Shown one piece after another: positions 14,702 through 34,355 of a stretch of 34,355 nt of DNA. The DNA is taken from NCBI GenBank assembly GCA_012799975.1, contig JAAZKF010000038.1, forward strand, positions 1 to 34,355, in the 5' to 3' direction. Position numbers and translations under genes: made by a program. The notes under the pieces were generated by a model. It made no database searches. It saw only the letters and a program-made list of their open reading frames with translations, and was not told where the DNA came from. This DNA is from Burkholderiales bacterium (GTDB lineage: Bacteria; Vulcanimicrobiota; Xenobia; Xenobiales; Xenobiaceae). Numbering within the stretch: position 1 is the first letter of the stretch; each line of letters opens with the position of its first letter.

Positions 14702-14857
14702 CGGTCGGCCAGGCGTGACTGTCCGGGTCCCGAGTCGGCGATTCCCCCCCAGGGAATTGTACGCATCCCCCGGGATTACCTGGTTTCCGGATCATGAACT
14801 CCCCGTCCCGAAGGAGCATCGGGCCTGCCCACAAGCGTCAAACCCCGGAGCATGGCA

Positions 14858-15073
14858 CCTGAATCCGCTGCCTGGCGTGAGAACCGAGGCCATCGAGGCG
14901 GGTCCGGATGCCAGGAAGGCGTGCGTTCTGAGGAGCGGAGCGTAGTTGGAAACTACGTGAGCACCGCAGAGGTGCGCCTGACGACGCAGACGGGCCCTTC
15001 CCACCCGCACCCAGGTGTGGGTGGGACCTCAAGGGATCGACGGCCGAATGCCACGCCAGGCGGCGGATTCAGG
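14858..15073. repeat. Dispersed ~215-bp element, copy 1, with terminal inverted repeats
   Basis: Left end cctgaatccgctgcctggcgtg vs reverse complement of right end cctgaatccgccgcctggcgtg; core nearly identical to copy 3; flanked by atggca on both sides (14852-14857 and 15074-15079). Confidence 0.9.
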
Positions 15074-15307
15074 ATGGCAGGAGGGTTCTCGTTGCCATGC
15101 TCTCCGAGCTTCTGCTAGACTGACCCCAGGCCCTGGGGGGGCCTCCAGCCTGGGACCAAGGCTGTACCCCCGGTGGCAGCCAGGGTCTGTGACAGGGATT
15201 CCTGGATGCGCAGTCACCAGATGCCCGCTGATCGGCGTGCCTGGTATGCGAAGCCTCTGGTTGCTGGAGTTGCTGACAACGTGAACATCGACAGGCCGAG
15301 GAGTTTG

Positions 15308-21436: not shown

Positions 21437-23104
21437 TTGATGCCTGAATCCACTGTCTGGCATGAGAACCGAGGCCGTCGAGGCGGGTCTGGATGCAAGG
21501 AAGGCGTGCCTCGAGGAGCGGAGCGTGGTTGGAAACTACGTGAGCACCGCAGAGATGCGCCTGACGACGCAGACGAGCCCTTCCCACCCGCACCCGGGTG
21601 TGGGTGGGACCTCAATGGAGCGGCGGTCGAATGCCACGCCAGGCGGCGGATTCAGGCGATACGCCAAGCTTTGCTGTTCATCGTCTTCCTGCTTGCGCTC
21701 GCCATGTTACCAGCAAGCGTGAAGGCAGAGCCGGGAGGGGTCTCGGGGGTCTGGTTGTCTCCCGACTGGATCCTGCCGGGAACGAGATCCTATACCGAAA
21801 ACGAGGTGCGCCGGGTGGCCCGCCAGACCCTGGAGAGCCTGGCAGCCGAGGGCATCAACACTGTCTTCCTGGAGACCTGGCTGCGCGGCTACTCGATCGC
21901 ACCTGGAATCCAGACCAGGAACTACCGCGCCACTATCCAGCCTTTCCGTCCCGGGATCGAGGGTCTGCCGGTCTACCGGCACCTGCGCTGGGACTACCGC
22001 GTGCTGGCGGACGAGGTTCAGGACCCCCTGCAGATCTTCATCGACGAAGCCCGCCCCCTGGGGATTGAGATCCACGCCTGGTGCCACGCCTTCTACTGGA
22101 AGATGGACAACACGTCGGTGATGCTCCCCTGGCATTCAGGACCGAGCCTCTGGAACGACCTGCTGGCCACCTGGCTGCGAGAGGAGGCCACCCGCCTGCA
22201 GGACTCGCCGGTCGCGGCCCCGGCTACCCTGACTCTCATGTCCGAAGCCGCGGAACTCTTCGATCACACCGACGAGCCTCGGGAGTTGGAGAAGATCCTG
22301 GCCCGGCACGGTGTCCCCCATAGAGGGAATCCCCTGGGCGCCCTGGTGCGTCAGGTCCTGCGCGCCGGAGCCCGCGAACCGGGATTCCTCCTGATCTCTT
22401 CGAGCGAGGACCCCTTCCCTGCCCCCCGCAACAAGCAACTGCGCCCCGTCTTCCTAAACCCCGAAAACCCCGAGGTGGCCCGTCGCCTGGAAGCCGCCCT
22501 GCTGAACCTGGCTGCCGGGCACCCGGGTCTGGCCGGTCTACACCTGGACCATATCCGCTTCCCGGTGGATGGCCAGGGCCTGCCCGAAGAGTTGGGGATC
22601 CAGAGCGGAACGTACAGCTACTACAACCCAGCCGACCCAGCCCAGATGGAACGCTATCAGCGCTGCCGGGAGATCATCGAGCGCCGTCTGACGGCCCTGA
22701 CGACGCTGGTCAACCGGATCCGGGAAGGACTCGATCGGCGGATCGCCCTCTCGGCAGCCGTCCTGCCCCTGTACTACCGGGAGCGGGACAACGGCCGGCG
22801 CCGTCTCTCCGGCTATGATTTCTCCTGCCAGGACTGGTATGCCTGGAAGGTGGATTTCGTGGTCCCGATGATGTACGACTTCAACCCCTATGTCATCCGC
22901 AGTATCCTGAGGGAATTCGCCGAGGACCAGGAGCGCCTGCATGGGCGCCGGACCATCGCCGTCTACCCGGGAATCAGCCACCTGCAACTGGCCCGCTCGG
23001 GAGCCCTGGCGGCGAGCGACTGGGTCTTCTTCGACCTGACCCTGGCCCGGGATTTGAAATTCGAAAGACAGCCTGTCGAAGACCTGGACTTCGAGCCGGA
23101 ATAA
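21437..23104 (+). CDS. Secreted glycoside hydrolase-like protein (COG1649 / GHL10-type family)
   Basis: Signal-like LLFIVFLLALAMLPASVKA; GVWLSPDW...ESLAAEGINTVFLETWLRGYSI...EIHAWCHAFYW...HLDHIRFPVDGQ...WKVDFVVPMMYDFN. The N-terminal ~73 codons are encoded by repeat copy 2, so the true start is uncertain. Confidence 0.78.
   Translation: MMPESTVWHENRGRRGGSGCKEGVPRGAERGWKLREHRRDAPDDADEPFPPAPGCGWDLNGAAVECHARRRIQAIRQALLFIVFLLALAMLPASVKAEPGGVSGVWLSPDWILPGTRSYTENEVRRVARQTLESLAAEGINTVFLETWLRGYSIAPGIQTRNYRATIQPFRPGIEGLPVYRHLRWDYRVLADEVQDPLQIFIDEARPLGIEIHAWCHAFYWKMDNTSVMLPWHSGPSLWNDLLATWLREEATRLQDSPVAAPATLTLMSEAAELFDHTDEPRELEKILARHGVPHRGNPLGALVRQVLRAGAREPGFLLISSSEDPFPAPRNKQLRPVFLNPENPEVARRLEAALLNLAAGHPGLAGLHLDHIRFPVDGQGLPEELGIQSGTYSYYNPADPAQMERYQRCREIIERRLTALTTLVNRIREGLDRRIALSAAVLPLYYRERDNGRRRLSGYDFSCQDWYAWKVDFVVPMMYDFNPYVIRSILREFAEDQERLHGRRTIAVYPGISHLQLARSGALAASDWVFFDLTLARDLKFERQPVEDLDFEPE
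21443..21656. repeat. Dispersed ~215-bp element, copy 2 (more diverged left end)
   Basis: cctgaatccactgtctggcatga ... ccacgccaggcggcggattcagg; internal gagcggagcgtggttggaaactacgtgagcaccgcaga and cccacccgcacccgggtgtgggtggg match copies 1 and 3. Confidence 0.88.
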
Positions 23105-23945: not shown

Positions 23946-24313
23946 CCCCTCCACCCTGCTCGGCGATACTCGCCCGCCGGCCATCGGCTGCGGCTGGCTG
24001 CAGCCATGTCCGATATCGATCCGCATCTTCCGCCCTATGCGCTTCCGAGAATTCGCGGTGGAATCAGGCGGTGACCCGAGCGGAAAGCCAATGACCAGCC
24101 TGTCTACGGGAGAGGAAGGCCAGGAGATCAGCAGGTAAACTCGAGCGCCCCCTGACAAGTTTTGGCACCTCCCCCATCGTATACTCAACCTGCACTGCAG
24201 TTCCGCGGGAATCCTCAGGCGCAAGCGGGAGCCGCTGCACTGCGGCAGGAACCATAGACCTTCAGGGTTAGAGCCCAGGACATATTGAACAACAAACAGG
24301 GAGGCGCCCACGC

Positions 24314-25582
24314 ATGGCCAGCACCGTTATCAATCTGAGTCTCCTGGAAGACGCCGTGGCAGGACAGTATGCTGCGATCCGCAGCATCACGCGATTGCAG
24401 CCGGCCGGAGGCGCCGGCGACAAGGTCTTCCCGCCGACCTACGTCAAGGAGGGCCGCAGCACTACCAAATACGCAGTCGAGAATCGCAAGATCGATGGCC
24501 GCGAAGTGATGACAGTGCTCCTGGATTCTGTGCCTTCTCAAGCCAATCGGATGGAGGAGGCTTTGCTCGATGGTTGGCGCCGCGGGGAACTGAATGTCTT
24601 CCCGCTCATCGAGGTCGACTTCAGTGAGTACGAGGATCTGGCCGACCTGGACCGCCTCACCTCTCTGCAGACCCCCCATCGTATCGCGGATGCCCTGCTC
24701 CGAGACAGCGTCGACCACGATGGTGTCCCCTTCCGCCAGACCGACTACGGACGCGCCTTCAGCGAAAGCAGGACCAACCACGCCACGGGCATGTTCCGGA
24801 CATGTCCAACCGCCCTGATTTTCGGCTGCTGGGATTCAACGGGTCCCAAGGGCGGGCTGGGTTCGAAATTCCAACGGTGCGTGGTCTCCGAGATCGTCGG
24901 CTATGATGTGGTCTTCGGCGTGAAGACGGCAAGCCGCATCGACCCCACCGGCATCGAGCGCAAGGCCGGCACCGTTTATGAATCGAAGTCGGACCCGAAT
25001 GAGTGGACCACCATCATTGCAGAGGCTGCTGTGGACGCCAAGGGCAACCCGAAGCTCTTCAGCCGCAAGGGAGCCGGCGACAAGGGAACCCCCGCAGTCA
25101 TCAACCACGGGAATATCCCTCCGTCCATCGATGCGGAAGCCGGTGGCGTCACCATCGACCACGCCATCCAGACAACCGTGCTTTCCCTGCCAGGCTTGCG
25201 GCGGCTGCGCTTCCAGACCGACGTCAAAGGCCAACGACTGGACGATTCTGCACGTCCTGCCGCCGAACTGGCTGCCAGGACCGCGCTGGCCGCACTCGCC
25301 CTGGCCGCGATCGTGTATCTCCGTGAGAACGACTATGATCTCCGGTCACGTGCCCTCCTGGTGCCGACCGAGCCGCTCGTCTTCCAGTTCGTCGGGCGCG
25401 ATGGCTTGGTCGAGGAATACACCTTGGACCGCGAAGGAGCGGTTGCCTTGCTGCGCGAGGCGGCTCGGAAGGCTGAGGCGGCGGGTATGGGCTGGACCCC
25501 CGGGCCACTTTCCCTGAAGCCCTCACCGAAGTTGGCGAGACTGATCCAGGTCAGCCGGTCCACCGTCGCCGGGGCTGAGTAA
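24314..25582 (+). CDS. csb1: Type I-G (I-U) CRISPR-associated Csb1/Cas7 (GSU0053 family)
   Basis: LQPAGGAGDKVFPPTYVKEG..Y..E.R...VLLDSVPSQANRMEEALL...TPHRIADALLRDS...FGCWDSTGPKGGLGSKFQRCVVSEIVGYD, plus cas context. Confidence 0.9.
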   Translation: MASTVINLSLLEDAVAGQYAAIRSITRLQPAGGAGDKVFPPTYVKEGRSTTKYAVENRKIDGREVMTVLLDSVPSQANRMEEALLDGWRRGELNVFPLIEVDFSEYEDLADLDRLTSLQTPHRIADALLRDSVDHDGVPFRQTDYGRAFSESRTNHATGMFRTCPTALIFGCWDSTGPKGGLGSKFQRCVVSEIVGYDVVFGVKTASRIDPTGIERKAGTVYESKSDPNEWTTIIAEAAVDAKGNPKLFSRKGAGDKGTPAVINHGNIPPSIDAEAGGVTIDHAIQTTVLSLPGLRRLRFQTDVKGQRLDDSARPAAELAARTALAALALAAIVYLRENDYDLRSRALLVPTEPLVFQFVGRDGLVEEYTLDREGAVALLREAARKAEAAGMGWTPGPLSLKPSPKLARLIQVSRSTVAGAE

Positions 25583-25583
25583 A

Positions 25584-27245
25584 GTGTTCGCCATCGAAGT
25601 CTCGTTGCTGACAGGAAGATACGTCGCCACTGCCTACAACGATCGCCGTGCTTCAGAATGGCCACCACACCCCGCTCGGCTCTTCTCGGCCTTGGCCGCC
25701 ACCTGCCTGTCCAACGAAGAGGTCGACCCCTTCGAGAGCGAAGCACTCGAATGGCTGGAGTCCCTGCCCGCTCCGGAGATCGCGGCGAGCGAGGCTGCAG
25801 TGCGCGACGTGGTCACGGTCTTCGTGCCCGTGAACGACGCACACCAGACCGGGGATGTCGAGGCCGAGGTCCAGGCCCTGGACAATGCCCGCGAGGAGCT
25901 GGAGGCTGCCGACACGCCCAAAGCGCGGGCGGCAGCGCTCAAGAAGGTCGGCAAGGCCGAGAAAAAGCTGGCTGAGAGCATGGCGCGTGCTGTCGCGATT
26001 CCGGCCCGACCGCCCACCATCAAGGTAGCCCTGAACGGAGAACGAGTCCTCCCGGAGTTTCGTGTCCGCCAGCCCCGCACGTTCCCGTCCGTGAGTCCGG
26101 TGGATCCGGTAGTGACCTTCATCTGGAAGGGCAGCCGTCCGGCCGAGGTCCATCGGCGCGCCCTGGACCGCCTCCTGGCCCGGGTCGTCCGGCTGGGGCA
26201 CTCCTCGTCGCTGGTTTCGGCCCGGCTGGTGGACTCGGCACCTGCTTCTACCTGGTTCCCTTCCCAGACTGGAAGAACAGTTCTGCGCACCACCCGCGCC
26301 GGCCAGTTGGACGCCCTGATCGAGGCCTATTCGCGACACAAGGAGACCGAGCCCCGGGTCATGCCTGCTGGTTTTACCACCTACACCAATATCCGCGAAC
26401 CGGTCCCCAAACCAGCCCCCTCGACCTGCTTTGAGTCCGACGGGCTGGTGCTGCAACGCGTGGGCGGTCCCCGCCTGCCCATCACTGCGGCTGCGGGCCT
26501 GGCGGGAACCCTACGCCGCCTCATTTTGAGCACCGCGGCCGAACCGATTCCCGAGGTTATCTCCGGACATCTCCCGGATGGTTCTGCCAGCGGCCGAGAC
26601 CATCTGGCCATCGTCCCGCTCCCCTTCGTGGGGTCAAGCCACGCCACGGGTCACCTCCTGGGTGTCGCCCTCCTCCTCCCCAAAGATTCGACCCCCGAGG
26701 ATCGCCGGGCTCTCTATCTGGCCATCGATGCCTGGGAAAAGGAGGCCCGAACTCCCGGAGACGAAGAAGACACTCCAGCGGTCCCCATCCACCTGGGACG
26801 GCTGGGAAGTTGGCTTGTACGCCGACTGGAAGACCAGGAACGGCAGGCGACCTTGAAATCAGGGACCTGGACCCGCCCGTCCCGGGTCTGGTATTCGGTG
26901 ACGCCTGTCGCCTTGGACCGCCACCCGGGCGATCTGAGATCGAGAAATGCCAGGAAATACGCCACCGCCGTGGCCAAGGCCGAACGCAGCCTTGAAGCCG
27001 CCGTGCAACGGGTCGGACTCCCCCGCCCCGTCCGCATCCTCGTCGAGCCCAATCCGGTCCTGGCAGGATCCGTACCCGCACGAGCCTTCGGTAGATTCCC
27101 GGAAGACCTGAAGAAGAATCCCCGGGTACTCACACACGCAATACTCGAATTTCCAGAGCCGGTCCAAGGGCCCATCCTGATAGGCGCCGGCCGCTACCTG
27201 GGGCTAGGACTTTTCCGCCCCGGACCGTCCCCGGAGGGATGTTGA
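25584..27245 (+). CDS. csb2: Type I-G (I-U) CRISPR-associated Csb2 (Cas5-Cas6-type, GSU0054 family)
   Basis: MFAIEVSLLTGRYVATAYNDRRASEWPPHPARLFSALAA...EALEWLESLPAPEI; adjacent to csb1. Confidence 0.88.
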   Translation: MFAIEVSLLTGRYVATAYNDRRASEWPPHPARLFSALAATCLSNEEVDPFESEALEWLESLPAPEIAASEAAVRDVVTVFVPVNDAHQTGDVEAEVQALDNAREELEAADTPKARAAALKKVGKAEKKLAESMARAVAIPARPPTIKVALNGERVLPEFRVRQPRTFPSVSPVDPVVTFIWKGSRPAEVHRRALDRLLARVVRLGHSSSLVSARLVDSAPASTWFPSQTGRTVLRTTRAGQLDALIEAYSRHKETEPRVMPAGFTTYTNIREPVPKPAPSTCFESDGLVLQRVGGPRLPITAAAGLAGTLRRLILSTAAEPIPEVISGHLPDGSASGRDHLAIVPLPFVGSSHATGHLLGVALLLPKDSTPEDRRALYLAIDAWEKEARTPGDEEDTPAVPIHLGRLGSWLVRRLEDQERQATLKSGTWTRPSRVWYSVTPVALDRHPGDLRSRNARKYATAVAKAERSLEAAVQRVGLPRPVRILVEPNPVLAGSVPARAFGRFPEDLKKNPRVLTHAILEFPEPVQGPILIGAGRYLGLGLFRPGPSPEGC

Positions 27246-30112
27246 TGTCCACGCTGGATGCGCCACGCTTTGCCGAATTCTTCGCAGCCCTCCACGACTG
27301 CAGACCTTTCCCCTGGCAGACCCGGCTGGCCGAGCAGGTCTTCCGGGACGAGGCCTGGCCCGCGATCCTCGACCTCCCCACGGGATCGGGGAAGACCGCG
27401 ACGCTTGACGTCGCCGTCTATTACCTGGCCTCGCAGGCCTGCCGCCCCGACCGCAAGGCGGCACTCCGAATCGTGTACGTGGTCGACCGCCGTACCATCG
27501 TCGACCAGGCCTTCGAAAGAGCGCGGGCCATCGCCGGTCGCATCCAGAAAGCTTCGAACGGCATCCTGCGCGAGGTACGCGAGGCTCTCGGTCACCTTCC
27601 ATCGGTGGGAACCTGCCCTCTCGAGGTGGCCTTGCTCCGCGGCGGGATCCCACGCGGAGATGCCTGGGCCAAGCGCCCCGACCAGCCCTTGATCGCCGTC
27701 TCCACCGTCGACCAGGTCGGTTCAAGACTGCTCTTCCGTGGGTATGGTGTCTCCCCCTCGATGCGGCCGATTCACGCCGGCCTGCTCGGGAACGACGTGC
27801 TTTATCTCCTGGACGAGGTGCACCTCTCGGCTCCGTTCTGCGAGACCCTGGAGCAGATCGGTGGACGCTACCGTTCCTGGGGCTCGCACGCCCTGCGCAC
27901 CCCGTTCTCGGTGGTCCAGATGTCCGCCACTCCCGGCGCGACGGGCACCGATCCTTTCGCTCTGGACGAGGCCGACTGGTCCCATCCGCAACTACGCCGA
28001 CGCCTGGAATCATCCAAACCCACCCGTCTCATCTCGCTTCCGGCCTCAAAACTCGTCGCCGAACTGAAGAAAGAAGCCCTCGACTTCTGCGCCCGGGAAG
28101 GCTCCACGGTCCTGGTCGTGGTCAACCGCGTCGACACCGCACGCCGTCTGGCCTCCTCCCTACAGGCGGATTCGAAGGACCACTTCGATGTGCGTCTGTT
28201 GACGGGCCGTATGCGGCCACTGGACCGGGAGGTTGCCGAAGCCGAGATCCTGCCCCGCGTGCGGGCGGGCCGCGAACGAAAGCCAGACCGGCGTTCCCTG
28301 GTGGTGGTCTCTACCCAGTGCATCGAAGCCGGTGCCGATTTCGACTTCGACTCCCTGGTTACCGAGTGCGCCAGCCTGGACGCCCTGCGCCAACGCTTCG
28401 GGCGCCTGGACCGCCTGGGCACGCAGGGTAGCGCGCCGGCCGTGATCCTGGCCTCCACCGACAATTTGAAGGATGACCCCATCTACGGACCTGCCCTGGG
28501 ACAGACATGGGCCTGGCTGAACGAGCAGGACCCCCTGGACTTCGGTCACACCCACCTGCAGCTCCCGGAAGAGAGCATCCTGACCAACCTGGTCCCGCCA
28601 CGACCTCACGCCCCCATCCTGCTGCCCGCCCACCTGGACTCGTGGGTGCAGACCAACCCCGAACCCTGGCCCGACCCTGACGTGGCCCTCTGGCTGCACG
28701 GGCCGGGCCGCGGGACGGCGGACTGCCAGGTGGTGTGGCGAGCCGACCTGTCCGAAGACTTGCTTCGCGCGGCCGAAGATGCCGTGATGGCAGAAGCCGT
28801 GCTGGCCCTGGTCGGCAGCGTCCCTCCGTCTTCCGGCGAAGCGGTGGCCATTCCCCATGCAGCCGCCTCGCGATGGCTCCGCGGAATTCCCGAAGGGACT
28901 GTAGCGGACGTCGAAGGGACCAGGGAGACCGAGGACCAGAAACCAGACCAACCACCCCGGCCGTGCCTGGTCTGGCGCGGCGACGACTCGCTGGTGGTCC
29001 AAGGCGAAGACCTCGACCGAACCCTGCGGCCCGGAGACACGATCGTGGTGCCCGCCACCTACGGGGGGCTCCTTCAGGGTACCTGGGATCCCTCCAACCC
29101 TACCGCCGTGCGCGACCTGGGAGACCTGGCCGCCTTCCGCCTCCGGGGACGCCTCGCGCTGCGGCTGCACCGAGATGTCCTGCAGAGCCTGACCAGGGAT
29201 CCTCAGGCTTCTCCACCCGCCTTCCCGCCAGAAGAGGAGACACCTGTGGATGAGCGGGAGATCGTCGCAGCCTGGTTGCATGAAGCCGCCAGGCGTGACT
29301 GGCCGGCCGACATCGTCGCCCTGGTCAAAGCCCTCGCCAAAGAAGGCTCGCGCCTGGTCATCGACCGGGTCGAGGTTCCCGGCCAGGAACCCCATCGGGT
29401 CGTCCGGTCACGCCGTCGGTTGCGCTTTGATGGCGAGGAGGTCAACTCGGAGGATGATTCCTCCTCCTTCACGGGGGTACCCATCCCGCTCACCCACCAC
29501 TTGGAGGGAGTGGCGCAGCGGGCGGGGGAATTTGCCGCCCGGGTCGGCTTGGACCAGGAGTTGACCAAGGACCTCAGGCTGGCAGGCTTCTGGCACGACA
29601 TCGGCAAGGCAGACCCGCGCTTTCAATGCCTACTGCACGGAGGCAGCTCCTTCCGCGCCTCGGTAGCGCCCCAGCCGCTTGCCAAGTCGCAACGGATCAG
29701 CTTGCGACGAGATGAACGGATGCGTGCGGCCCGGCGCTCGGGTTATCCGTCCGGCGCACGGCACGAGCTTCAGTCCGTAGCCCTGCTGCAAGGGGCTGGA
29801 GCCCTGCTGGACCAGGCCCACGACGCCGATCTGGTATTGCATCTCGTGGCCTGCCACCACGGTCGATGCCGGCCCTTCGCTCCTTGGGTGCCTGACCCGC
29901 AACCACTAGAAGTGTGCTTCTCCCTGGATGGCACAACACTGACCTCGACCAGCGACCACGGCCTGGCCCGCCTCGACTCGGGCATCCCGGAACGCTTCTG
30001 GCGACTGGTGCGTCGCTACGGCTGGTGGGGGCTGGCCTGGATTGAAGCCCTCCTGAGGCTGGGCGACCACCTCCAAAGTGAAATTGAACAGAAAACGGAG
30101 CACCCCTCGTGA
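27239..30112 (+). CDS. cas3: CRISPR-associated helicase/nuclease Cas3 with C-terminal HD domain
   Basis: Walker A LDLPTGSGKTATLDVAVYY, DEVH box YLLDEVHLSAPF, motif III MSATPG, motif VI RQRFGRLDRLG; C-terminal HHLEGVAQRAGEFA...AGFWHDIGKADPRFQ...VACHHGR HD motifs. Confidence 0.94.
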   Translation: MLMSTLDAPRFAEFFAALHDCRPFPWQTRLAEQVFRDEAWPAILDLPTGSGKTATLDVAVYYLASQACRPDRKAALRIVYVVDRRTIVDQAFERARAIAGRIQKASNGILREVREALGHLPSVGTCPLEVALLRGGIPRGDAWAKRPDQPLIAVSTVDQVGSRLLFRGYGVSPSMRPIHAGLLGNDVLYLLDEVHLSAPFCETLEQIGGRYRSWGSHALRTPFSVVQMSATPGATGTDPFALDEADWSHPQLRRRLESSKPTRLISLPASKLVAELKKEALDFCAREGSTVLVVVNRVDTARRLASSLQADSKDHFDVRLLTGRMRPLDREVAEAEILPRVRAGRERKPDRRSLVVVSTQCIEAGADFDFDSLVTECASLDALRQRFGRLDRLGTQGSAPAVILASTDNLKDDPIYGPALGQTWAWLNEQDPLDFGHTHLQLPEESILTNLVPPRPHAPILLPAHLDSWVQTNPEPWPDPDVALWLHGPGRGTADCQVVWRADLSEDLLRAAEDAVMAEAVLALVGSVPPSSGEAVAIPHAAASRWLRGIPEGTVADVEGTRETEDQKPDQPPRPCLVWRGDDSLVVQGEDLDRTLRPGDTIVVPATYGGLLQGTWDPSNPTAVRDLGDLAAFRLRGRLALRLHRDVLQSLTRDPQASPPAFPPEEETPVDEREIVAAWLHEAARRDWPADIVALVKALAKEGSRLVIDRVEVPGQEPHRVVRSRRRLRFDGEEVNSEDDSSSFTGVPIPLTHHLEGVAQRAGEFAARVGLDQELTKDLRLAGFWHDIGKADPRFQCLLHGGSSFRASVAPQPLAKSQRISLRRDERMRAARRSGYPSGARHELQSVALLQGAGALLDQAHDADLVLHLVACHHGRCRPFAPWVPDPQPLEVCFSLDGTTLTSTSDHGLARLDSGIPERFWRLVRRYGWWGLAWIEALLRLGDHLQSEIEQKTEHPS

Positions 30113-31032
30113 GTGAACTCAAACTCGCCGGTCTGGATGGTTCCAATCCACTGGCTTTCCTCGCCGCACTGGGCGTGCTTCGCGCAGCCGACGACCAGGT
30201 CCGGGGAGTTCGCCTGTCGTGGCGGGAGGAAGGGATTTGGTTCCCCGTCCTGCACGATTTTGACGGAGACCTGGACGCCCTCCTCGACCTTCTTGAAGCG
30301 GATCTACAGGACTGTGCCGACGACCCCGCCCTGGCCTTGATCTATGCATCCAAAGAGGAAGAGGTCCCGACCGAGCGGGACCTCAAGCCACCGCCCGCCG
30401 TCTTTCGTCAGTACCTCGAGACCCTGGTCGAGGGGGCGACGGCGGACCACCGGCGTAGCGTCGACTGGGCGGCGGCCTTCGCGAGCGACGTGGTCACCGA
30501 CCTGGGGGGCAAGACCAAGCCGTCGGCCCTGCACTTCACGGCCGGCCAACAGAAATTCCTCGGCATGGTGCACCAGATCCTCGAGCAAGGGCAGCGCGAA
30601 GATCTCGAAGAGGCCATCTGCGGCCCCTGGCTATATGACCGGAACCTGCCTGTCCTGGGATGGGACAATACCGTGAGCAGAGACTACGCCCTTCGCGCCA
30701 GGGATCCGTCCACAGACCAAAAGTGTGGAGTCCCGGGCGCCGACTGGCTGGCCCTGCGAGGGCTCAGTTTCCTGGTCGTCGTACCGCGAGGCGACCGCCT
30801 TCTGACCACATGCTGCACGGGCGGATGGAAGTCGGGCCTTTTTCGTTGGCCTCTATGGACCCCACCGCTCCCCAGTGAGGTCATCGGCAGCCTGCTGCGG
30901 TGTGACATGACGAGGATGTCCATCCAAGAACGACTTGCCCGCGGGGTCGGGGTGACCTTCGAGTGCTCAATCCGCCGGTCCGACCAAGGGGGTTACGGCA
31001 GCTTCACTCCGTCCCGACCGCTGGTCGGCTGA
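30109..31032 (+). CDS. Putative compact Cas8-type subunit of type I-G system (Csx17/Csb3-like position)
   Basis: GTGA overlap with cas3; MSELKLAGLDGSNPLAFLAALGVLRAADD N-terminus and SIRRSDQGGYGSFTPSRPL C-terminus; identity inferred mainly from operon position. Confidence 0.6.
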   Translation: MSELKLAGLDGSNPLAFLAALGVLRAADDQVRGVRLSWREEGIWFPVLHDFDGDLDALLDLLEADLQDCADDPALALIYASKEEEVPTERDLKPPPAVFRQYLETLVEGATADHRRSVDWAAAFASDVVTDLGGKTKPSALHFTAGQQKFLGMVHQILEQGQREDLEEAICGPWLYDRNLPVLGWDNTVSRDYALRARDPSTDQKCGVPGADWLALRGLSFLVVVPRGDRLLTTCCTGGWKSGLFRWPLWTPPLPSEVIGSLLRCDMTRMSIQERLARGVGVTFECSIRRSDQGGYGSFTPSRPLVG

Positions 31033-31217
31033 GGGGGGCCGGTCACCGACACGTTTTGAACGGGACCCGGCGAGAGGCACCTGGTCAGCACGGCCGACAC
31101 CGCGTCGACCCGCCCATATTCCAGACCACGGTGACATATCCTGACACCGACAACCTTCACAATGAAGGGAATCCGTCCCGCATCCTGTTGACAATGCCGT
31201 CAACCGACTGCACCCGG

Positions 31218-31433
31218 CCTGAATCCGCCGCCTGGCGTGAGAACCGAGGCCATCGAGGCGGGTCTGGATGCCAGGAAGGCGTGCGTTCTGAGGAGCGGAG
31301 CGTAGTGGGAAACTACGTGAGCACAGCAGAGGTGCGCCTGACGACGCAGACGGGCCCCTCCCACCCACACCCTGGTGTGGGTGGGGTCTCAACGCCTCGA
31401 CGGCCGAATGCCGCGGTAGGCGGCGGATCCAGG
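31218..31433. repeat. Dispersed ~215-bp element, copy 3, inside the CRISPR-cas locus
   Basis: cctgaatccgccgcctggcgtgagaaccgaggccatcgaggcgggtctggatgccaggaaggcgtgcgttctgaggagcggagcg... near-identical to copy 1; right end more diverged (ccgcggtaggcggcggatccagg). Confidence 0.9.
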
Positions 31434-31513
31434 CCCGAGGCCGCGACTCCTGACGTGCGCCTTCCCAGCGCACTGAATGCGGGTTGGATTGATCGTGAAG
31501 GGAGGAACCGCCG

Positions 31514-33205
31514 ATGCAGACCCGCACCGCCCTGCCGGAACTGCTGCCGGCCCGCATGCTCAACGAATTTGTCTATTGCCCCCGCCTCGGATTTCTGGAG
31601 TGGGTCGAAGGCGAATTCGCAGACAACCAATACACCGAGGATGGTCGCTATCAACACCGCCGGGTGGACCGCAAGTCGGGGTTCCTGGAGGCGCCCCCAG
31701 AACCCGAGGATGCCGAGGCCCCCGAACGTCCCCAGGTTGCCCGCTCGGTCATGATGTCCGCCCCGGTGGAAGGACTCATCGCCCGTATGGACCTGGTGGA
31801 AGCCACCGGGGCTGAGGCGACCCCGGTGGACTACAAGCGCGGCAAGGTGCCAAATGTACCGGCCAATGCCTACGACCCCGAACGCGTCCAACTCTGCGCT
31901 CAGGGCTTGATCCTGCGTGAGAACGGTTTCGTCTGCCGGGGCGGTTGGCTGTATTTCGCAGCTTCCCGGCGCCGGGTCTGGGTGGAGTTCGAGCCGGAAC
32001 TGGTCGAAATGACCCGCCAGGCTGCGCGGGACTTCCGTCGCATGGCGGATGACGGTGTACGACCCCCTCCCTTGCACCACAGCCCTAAATGTGGAGGTTG
32101 CTCGCTTTCCGGTATCTGCCTGCCCGACGAGATCGAATTGCTGCGGGGAGATCCGCAGGCCCCCGAGTCCCCAGAAGAAGAGGTCCGCCGGCTGATGCCC
32201 GCTCGAAACGAGGCCCTTCCCCTCTACCTGCAGCGCCACGGCCTCTCGCTGGGGCTCAGCGGAGAGACCCTGCAGGTTCGCGAAAAGGGAGAACAGGTAG
32301 CCGAGATCCGACTGCTGGACCTCTCTCAAATCAACCTCATGGGGAATATCCAGATCACTACCCAGGCAGTCCGCGAACTCTGCAGCCGCGGTATTCCGGT
32401 CAGCTACTTCTCGTTCGGCGGATGGTTCTCTGGGATGACCCAGGGGCCGGGGCACAAGAACATCCTTCTGCGCCAGACCCAGTTCCGTGCTGCCTTCGAC
32501 CCCGACCGATGCTGCACCATCGCCCGAGAGTTGGTGGCGGCGAAGATCCTCAATTGCCGGACCATGCTGCGCCGGAACCTAGAAGAACCGGCTCCCGATC
32601 TGTTGGTCGAATTGAAGGAATTGGCAGGTCAGGCCCGCCGGACTAAAAACCTCGAGAGCCTCCTTGGCGTTGAAGGCTACGCTGGCCGCCTTTATTTTGG
32701 GGCATTCCCAGGCATGTTCAAGAAGCAGGGCCTATCCTTCGACTTCCAGGGCCGCAACCGCCGCCCTCCGCTGGACCCAGTCAATGCGATGCTTTCTTTT
32801 GCCTACTCCCTGTTGACCCGAGACCTGACCATCACTCTGCAAAGCGTGGGCTTCGATCCCTTCCAGGGTTATTACCATCAGCCCCGCTATGGACGGCCCG
32901 CGCTGGCCCTGGACCTGATGGAGCCCTTCCGTCCCCTGATCGCCGACTCCACCGTGCTGTGGTGCCTGAACAACGGCGTGATCGGCCCTGATGATTTCGT
33001 GACCGCGGCCAATGCCTGCAATCTCTCGCCTTCGGGCCGCAAGTCCTTCATCCAGGCCTATGAGCGCCGGATGGATGAACTTATCACCCATCCCACCTTC
33101 GGATACCGCCTCAGCTACCGCCAACTGCTGGAGGTACAGTCCCGCCTTTTCGGCCGCTACCTGGCGGGAGAGGTTCCCGAGGTCCCTACTATCCGGACCC
33201 GCTGA
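31514..33205 (+). CDS. cas4-cas1: Cas4-Cas1 fusion protein
   Basis: N-terminal Cas4: LNEFVYCPRLGFLEW, VDYKRGK, CGGCSLSGIC; C-terminal Cas1: LLGVEGYAGRLYFGAF, FDPFQGYYHQPRYGRPALALDLMEPFRPLIADS. Confidence 0.95.
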   Translation: MQTRTALPELLPARMLNEFVYCPRLGFLEWVEGEFADNQYTEDGRYQHRRVDRKSGFLEAPPEPEDAEAPERPQVARSVMMSAPVEGLIARMDLVEATGAEATPVDYKRGKVPNVPANAYDPERVQLCAQGLILRENGFVCRGGWLYFAASRRRVWVEFEPELVEMTRQAARDFRRMADDGVRPPPLHHSPKCGGCSLSGICLPDEIELLRGDPQAPESPEEEVRRLMPARNEALPLYLQRHGLSLGLSGETLQVREKGEQVAEIRLLDLSQINLMGNIQITTQAVRELCSRGIPVSYFSFGGWFSGMTQGPGHKNILLRQTQFRAAFDPDRCCTIARELVAAKILNCRTMLRRNLEEPAPDLLVELKELAGQARRTKNLESLLGVEGYAGRLYFGAFPGMFKKQGLSFDFQGRNRRPPLDPVNAMLSFAYSLLTRDLTITLQSVGFDPFQGYYHQPRYGRPALALDLMEPFRPLIADSTVLWCLNNGVIGPDDFVTAANACNLSPSGRKSFIQAYERRMDELITHPTFGYRLSYRQLLEVQSRLFGRYLAGEVPEVPTIRTR

Positions 33206-33217
33206 GAGGAGGCCAGG

Positions 33218-33508
33218 ATGCGACGCGATTATCTTGTGGCCTACGATATCTGCGAACCGGGACGCCTGCGCAAGGTCTTCCAGATCATGCGCGGTTTCGG
33301 AGACCATCTGCAGTATTCGGTATTCAGATGCGCCCTGACTGATCGGGAGAAGGTTCAACTCCTGGCGAAACTAAGCGAAGCGATCCACCACGGCGAGGAC
33401 CAGGTCATGCTGGTTGATCTGGGCGGAGTCAGCCCCCGCTCTCGCCGCCGGTTCCGCACTCTCGGCCTCCCCCTGACCAATACCGAGAGGAGCGTCCTGG
33501 TCTTCTGA
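33218..33508 (+). CDS. cas2: CRISPR-associated endoribonuclease Cas2
   Basis: MRRDYLVAYDICEPGRLRKVFQIMRGFGDHLQYSVFRCALT; 96 aa immediately after cas4-cas1. Confidence 0.96.
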   Translation: MRRDYLVAYDICEPGRLRKVFQIMRGFGDHLQYSVFRCALTDREKVQLLAKLSEAIHHGEDQVMLVDLGGVSPRSRRRFRTLGLPLTNTERSVLVF

Positions 33509-34225
33509 GTTCTTTGAAAATCGAAGACCCCATAAGTTGATCGGCTCAAACCAAAGCCAGGTGCCTGTTTGTCAGCTATCTGACACCCGGGCGACTGGCA
33601 GCGGCTCCAGTTTGTCGGCTGCAGGCGGGGGTCTGGGTGCCCTGGCATCCAGACCTGCCGCCTGCACCCTCTGATGTCGTGGTCCAGCAGGTATCCGAGC
33701 CTACCGTGGCACGGTCCCATAGAAACACGCACGCCCATCGCCATCTGCATCCGGCCAAGCCCACCAGACGCTGAGATGCGGGTTCTTGGGCTGGTTCAAC
33801 AGCTTACCCCTACCACCGACACGCGCGTGTCAGGAGCGTCCCTCGACCCAGCGACAACCACGGCGCCCCAGCGCCTACCCGGGCCAGCTCGACCTTCTCC
33901 TGGTCCTTTCACCGCTCCGGTCCCAGGGTGACGGCTTTAGCAATTCCTGCCTCGAGAGTTCCTTGACCCCAACCGATCAAGGCCCTAAAATCTCACCGTT
34001 GCGTGGTCTCCACCAGATACAGAGGCGAAGACCCCTCGCGAGCGCCTCGGTGGTCGCAACTTCCCGCGGTGTGCTCGCCTCCGCCCAATTCCCCACCAAA
34101 CCAAGCTTCAGCGCACCTCAGGATGCAGGGATCCAGACTCGATCAGCAGAATACGCTAAGATACCCGGCACCCCTCGCACGATGAAACCAAAGCACCGAG
34201 ATGACCGGCTTAAGAAAGCGAGGGA
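33509..34225 (+). promoter_or_regulatory. CRISPR leader region
   Basis: 717-bp region without convincing coding sequence between cas2 and first CRISPR repeat. Confidence 0.7.
33963..33991 (+). promoter_or_regulatory. Candidate sigma70-like leader promoter
   Basis: TTGACC (33963-33968) - 17 bp - TAAAAT (33986-33991), directed towards the array. Confidence 0.45.
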
Positions 34226-34355
34226 GTATCCACGCCAATCACGGCGTGGCCCCATTGAAGCATCCATCATCGTCCTGGACCAGCAGGCCGAGGCCCGTAT
34301 CCACGCCAATCACGGCGTGGCCCCATTGAAGCAACAACAACGAGAGGGGGGAGCC
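34226..34355 (+). CRISPR. Start of a CRISPR array (two 36-nt repeats visible, truncated by window end)
   Basis: GTATCCACGCCAATCACGGCGTGGCCCCATTGAAGC at 34226-34261 and 34297-34332, 100% identical; 35-nt spacer atccatcatcgtcctggaccagcaggccgaggccc; repeat contains CCACGCC/GGCGTGG 7-bp stem and 3' ATTGAAGC. Confidence 0.95.

Follow-up and report, generated by a model that had tools for sequence, protein, structure and literature searches.

A multicopy miniature element with IS1380-type ends from an uncultured bacterial phylum, carrying a folded core found in miniature elements of other phyla

Bacterial type II MITEs are short (about 30-300 bp), multicopy elements without a transposase gene. Among the better known families, RUP, ERIC and NEMIS are TA-type MITEs, i.e., they display a TA target-site duplication, while REP/RAYT elements occur without target-site duplications (TSDs), and insertion sequences (IS) of the IS1380 family generate TSDs of 4-5 bp. 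Several type II MITEs are mobilized by a co-resident IS, including MITEAba12 with ISAba12, RUP with IS630-Spn1, and MITEPye1 with an IS of the IS1182 family (PMC6382973, PMC2229807, PMC11578231). Other small folding repeats include the CIR repeats of alphaproteobacteria, which are built of two hairpin arms and a linker, with GANTC exposed in a loop (PMC2229807), and the REP/RAYT elements, in which a GTAG or CGTC foot lies next to the hairpin (PMC3733652). In this work, we characterize a miniature element present in three copies in the window, namely the whole stretch of 34,355 bp analyzed here, which belongs to a MAG of 3.65 Mb in 452 contigs.

Copy 1 spans 216 bp (14858-15073, forward strand) and is bounded by near-perfect terminal inverted repeats (TIRs) of 22 bp with one differing base between arms: the left TIR, CCTGAATCCGCTGCCTGGCGTG, at 14858-14879 on the forward strand, and the right TIR, the reverse complement CCTGAATCCGCCGCCTGGCGTG, at 15052-15073 on the reverse strand. 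The preliminary description of this DNA had reported this size and these ends, as well as further copies starting at 21443 and 31218, all of which were borne out: copy 2 (21443-21656, forward strand) has 214 bp and 92% identity to copy 1, and copy 3 (31218-31433, forward strand) has 216 bp and 93% identity. From the outside inwards, the element consists of the TIR, an imperfect palindrome and a 46-nt core, and copy 1 folds as one long hairpin with a folding z-score of -11. The core hairpin of copy 1, GAGGAGCGGAGCGTAGTTGGAAACTACGTGAGCACCGCAG, lies at 14927-14972 and those of copies 2 and 3 at 21510-21555 and 31287-31332, all on the forward strand; our covariance model R2 scored them with 47.2, 44.1 and 37.3 bits, respectively, and recovered exactly these three copies in the window, the next match having 14.8 bits. 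A nested palindrome of 36 bp, CCCACCCGCACCC..GGTGTGGGTGGG (14998-15033, forward strand), was delimited by comparison with copy 1; it is present in the window's genome and in part of the congeneric genome G001, and is missing from the compared copies of the congeners G002 and G003 (L032, L033, L035) and from one G001 copy (L037). Copy 3 lies within a CRISPR-Cas gene cluster (24215-34355) resembling type I-G (I-U), as named by eye from the sequence without HMM, with csb1-, csb2- and cas3-like genes, a csb3-like gene, a cas4-cas1 fusion, and 37-bp repeats near 34226 and 34297.

The preliminary description had interpreted the element as a MITE-like non-autonomous mobile element, a proposal that the TIRs, the TSDs, the empty sites and a transposase with matching ends now support. 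It had also pointed to a 6-bp flanking direct repeat, and the hexamer ATGGCA does abut both ends of copy 1 (14852-14857 and 15074-15079), being the longest exact repeat flanking this copy; the typical duplication, however, is 5 bp, which was the modal length and was exact in 12 of 30 copies vs 5 of about 1,930 shuffled flanks. Copy 2 retains a decayed CGATG duplication, and no clear TSD was found in the flanks of copy 3. When the flanks of copy 1 were joined, they aligned across the junction to G003, which has one ATGGCA, and the joined flanks of copy 2 aligned to G001 and G002, each with a single CGATG-like site; these congeneric sites are empty, and copies 1 and 2 were therefore inserted after the species split. 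Genome-wide, the copies display constant boundaries and TSDs, as looked for on the advice of the preliminary description.

Given the 5-bp duplication and the CCT... ends, the IS1380 family was considered as the source of the transposase. Transposases with the PF13701 domain were detected in G003 and G001 only, and both are NCBIfam NF033539 equivalogs (210 and 230 bits vs a cut-off of 180). They belong to intact IS1380 elements of about 2.2 kb, of 2,232 bp in G003 and 2,258 bp in G001, the latter adjoining dnaN and flanked by a GACC duplication, so that the modal 5 bp of the MITE and the GACC of the IS both agree with the family. The two IS are bounded by CCTGAATCCGCC-like ends, and the terminal CCTGAATCCGCC is common to IS and MITE; this common end comprises 18 bp only (the outer 18 bp of the left TIR of copy 1 matching the G001 IS ends), and no homology to the IS was found in the MITE interior. 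As the likeness is limited to the ends, the element is a type II MITE, differing from the IS1380 insertion sequences in its unrelated interior and in having no transposase gene, which its 216 bp are too short to encode. Transposases with the PF01609 domain were rejected as partners, their ends not matching those of the element.

An intact IS1380 transposase was not assembled in the window's own genome, possibly because of contig breaks at repeats. A protein search of this genome recovered two IS fragments with DNA 96-98% identical to the G001 IS, both running into contig ends and one of them (contig C29) fused to a MITE end, which indicates that the IS1380 partner is or was resident. Within this IS remnant, a chimera of 102 bp (L217, 1377-1478) joins an IS1380 left end to a MITE end, illustrating how new miniature elements might arise.

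The element shares with MITEAba12, RUP and MITEPye1 a small, non-coding, multicopy nature, TIRs matching those of an autonomous IS and a TSD length typical of that IS, and is distinguished from them by a partner of the IS1380 family and by its conserved hairpin core. It resembles NEMIS/Correia and ERIC in its MITE architecture and in the long stem-loop it would form once transcribed, with other TIRs, a duplication of 5 bp instead of TA, and no recognized sequence match; a TA-type MITE (RUP, ERIC, NEMIS) was rejected on the basis of the duplication length. CIR was likewise rejected, as the element is one long hairpin with GAATC/GATTC inside the TIR stem. With these ends, duplications and empty sites observed, a related IS1380 transposase, of the DDE type and supplied in trans, would recognize, cut and insert the element ends, generating the 5-bp duplications. 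We thus regard as very probable the overall reading of a non-autonomous type II MITE mobilized in trans by IS1380, with an interior not derived from the IS and formed by a long imperfect palindrome with a conserved, asymmetric folded-strand hairpin at its apex. In the open-access literature searched, neither an IS1380-derived MITE nor the core was described; the element is a further case of a known MITE type, and it is the shared core that looks new.

The element is abundant in its host. A 23-mer core pattern with up to 3 mismatches matched the genome 174 times, vs 0 for a reversed-pattern control, far more often than chance would allow, and a TIR pattern matched 173 times; since many copies are located at contig breaks, where one physical copy may enter the count two times, the number can reasonably be put at about 90-170 copies. 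Mean divergence of 32 full-length copies from their own consensus was 2.8%. Many contigs of the MAG terminate within the element, which is probably a main cause of assembly fragmentation. BLAST searches of the own genome and 37 relatives located it in the four genomes of its genus only, and an exact-pattern scan identified bacterium UBP9_UBA6111 and MAG JALHDH01 as the congeners; as judged from these searches, numerous copies are restricted to a single genus within this uncultured phylum (UBP9 MAGs).

The core, conversely, was not. What the preliminary description, although right about the element, had not noticed is that the same module, an asymmetric hairpin of about 36 nt (GGAGC-GNA-GCGTAS...STACGT-GA-GCACC), is also found at the apex of miniature elements from other bacterial phyla that have unrelated ends. 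When plasmid records were searched by distant BLAST, the whole element serving as query, core-only matches were retrieved in Paenibacillus and Phyllobacterium, intergenic wherever annotated, and the Paenibacillus loci are palindromic elements with the unrelated ends TGTTCAAAAAGTC. In Sphingobium/Shinella, the core elements have the ends GGNCCGATCGACATTCAG; the ends are CTTTTCAGCGTGATWGAAAACC for Bacillus subtilis and Stutzerimonas and TAGGCGTAATTG for E. coli, Yersinia and Aeromonas, with related copies in Klebsiella, Salmonella and Proteus. Rhizobiales/Sphingomonads are among the groups with the core at the center of palindromic intergenic repeats. Within the phylum itself, a search of 149 genomes with model R1 produced weak single hits, of which only L154 was clearly a palindromic element containing the core; it comes from another family and has the ends GTTTACCGCGGCTTATCGC. 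The element L181, on a plasmid recorded as 'Klebsiella variicola' (CP063894), has an 87% match to a plasmid of Bacillus subtilis, and the CP063894 record may be mislabelled or contaminated.

The enterobacterial repeats, found at cysP-ucpA and qseE-qseG in E. coli and also in Yersinia, Aeromonas, Klebsiella and Salmonella, share the central hairpin and the same internal-loop bases with our element, and differ from it in their unrelated TIRs (TAGGCGTAATTG../..AAGATAGCCTA), their length of about 118 bp and their few copies per genome. They may be the E. coli RSA repeats; of the two E. coli copies examined, neither has a feature named in RefSeq. In four enterobacterial copies (L186, L187, L188, L193), the outer arms are mutual inverted repeats that vary between copies (e.g., CCTATCCCA..TGGGATAGG), as if these copies had inserted into existing palindromes. 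YPAL/RU-2 and RU-3, also small folding enterobacterial repeats of similar size, the latter with REP-like ends, were rejected, as their printed sequences (PMC2759123) lack the core, their best matches having 10 and 12 mismatches over the 24 letters scored. No family of Rfam 15 reached its gathering cut-off, a comparison with known ncRNAs also proposed in the preliminary description.

The structure of the core was assessed in an alignment (A2) of 21 sequences, a small set gathered by sequence similarity, from which very different variants are missing and in which, as the covariation did not serve for the gathering, it was not built in. The fold comprises an outer helix, an A.A mismatch, a G-N-A/G-A internal loop with a conserved G.U pair, an inner helix and a variable loop. 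The two helices were paired in 93.9% of cells and 8 of 11 pairs had changed on both sides, these cells not being independent events owing to within-clade kinship, yet with the changes falling in different clades: outer G-C pairs became A-T and C-G in enterobacteria, G-C became T-A in P. cellulosilyticus and A-T in Proteus, and C-G became T-A in L154, while the inner stem appeared as GTAG/CTAC, GTAC/GTAC or AAT/ATT. The covariation score was 0.392, vs 0.143 +/- 0.022 after shuffling (0 of 500) and at most 0.111 with slid partners. The bases of the internal loop (G-N-A opposite G-A; A opposite A) and the G.U pair were nearly invariant. Furthermore, RNAalifold unaided predicted nearly the same structure, and in single-sequence folds of six elements the core was the apex in most. 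A kink-turn was rejected for the internal loop because its bulge is too short. That the helices covary while the internal loop stays fixed argues strongly for selection on the folded strand.

What reads this strand can be addressed only tentatively. In the few annotated examples, the core strand was sense in L187 and L077, more often antisense to both neighbors (L186, L193, L179, L180, L182, L078, L075), and located between convergent genes in L079, L080 and L082; with both orientations relative to the neighboring genes, a reader of DNA seems somewhat likelier than one of mRNA. Our best, if weak, guess is that the folded strand may be read by some widely conserved factor, either of the host or of a mobile element. 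The core would then be an unrecognized structural module spread over several phyla, defining a superfamily of miniature elements independent of transposase ends and retained through that conserved reader, a proposal that we hold to be nearly as probable as not.

The best surviving alternative, possible though rather improbable, is that the core acts as RNA, as a hairpin cotranscribed with neighboring genes and serving as a protein or nuclease site that sets mRNA stability, a role that has been proposed for NEMIS and ERIC. The covarying helices and conserved loop, the G.U pair, retained by 20 of the 21 sequences as would suit an RNA, and the intergenic position of the elements are all in keeping with it; an mRNA element, however, should favor one orientation, and mixed orientations were seen, albeit in a small sample. 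Less probable, and in our opinion unlikely, is a double-stranded operator, i.e., an inverted-repeat site for a dimeric DNA-binding protein such as a host regulator or the transposase. In its favor, the core is a palindrome, in which symmetric changes could pass for covariation; nevertheless, the conserved bases are precisely those that break the symmetry (GNA opposite GA, A opposite A), the reverse of what a dimer site predicts, and several symmetric stem bases vary while pairing (G-C to C-G, A-T, T-A), which favors folded-strand recognition over a double-stranded palindromic site.

That the cores resemble each other across phyla by chance, or by convergence toward a stable hairpin, is very unlikely. 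Individual BLAST E-values are in some cases weak (0.01 to 10), and the Cupriavidus match L081 and several other BLAST matches, all in coding genes, were rejected as plainly due to chance; independent matches, however, lie centrally in intergenic palindromes that are bounded by TIRs and share the internal loop and compensatory stems, the element is multicopy in P. cellulosilyticus (18 model matches), and of 5,426 E. coli genomes, 5,107 have matches to the Salmonella copy, at a median of four places. Finally, a REP/BIME-type element moved by a RAYT (HUH, IS200/IS605-like) transposase, suggested by the palindromic, intergenic and abundant nature of the element and by the presence of GTAG, is scarcely credible and was rejected, given the long TIRs, the 5-bp TSD, the ends matching IS1380, and a GTAG located inside the apical stem and not in an unpaired foot.

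MITEs are usually regarded as empty passengers defined by their ends alone. A core conserved by covariation across unrelated ends and hosts implies a job for the interior, whether it serves mobility, regulation or the tolerance of long palindromes, and likewise implies a conserved partner that can be sought. With about four copies per genome in E. coli, the question is directly testable in a laboratory strain.
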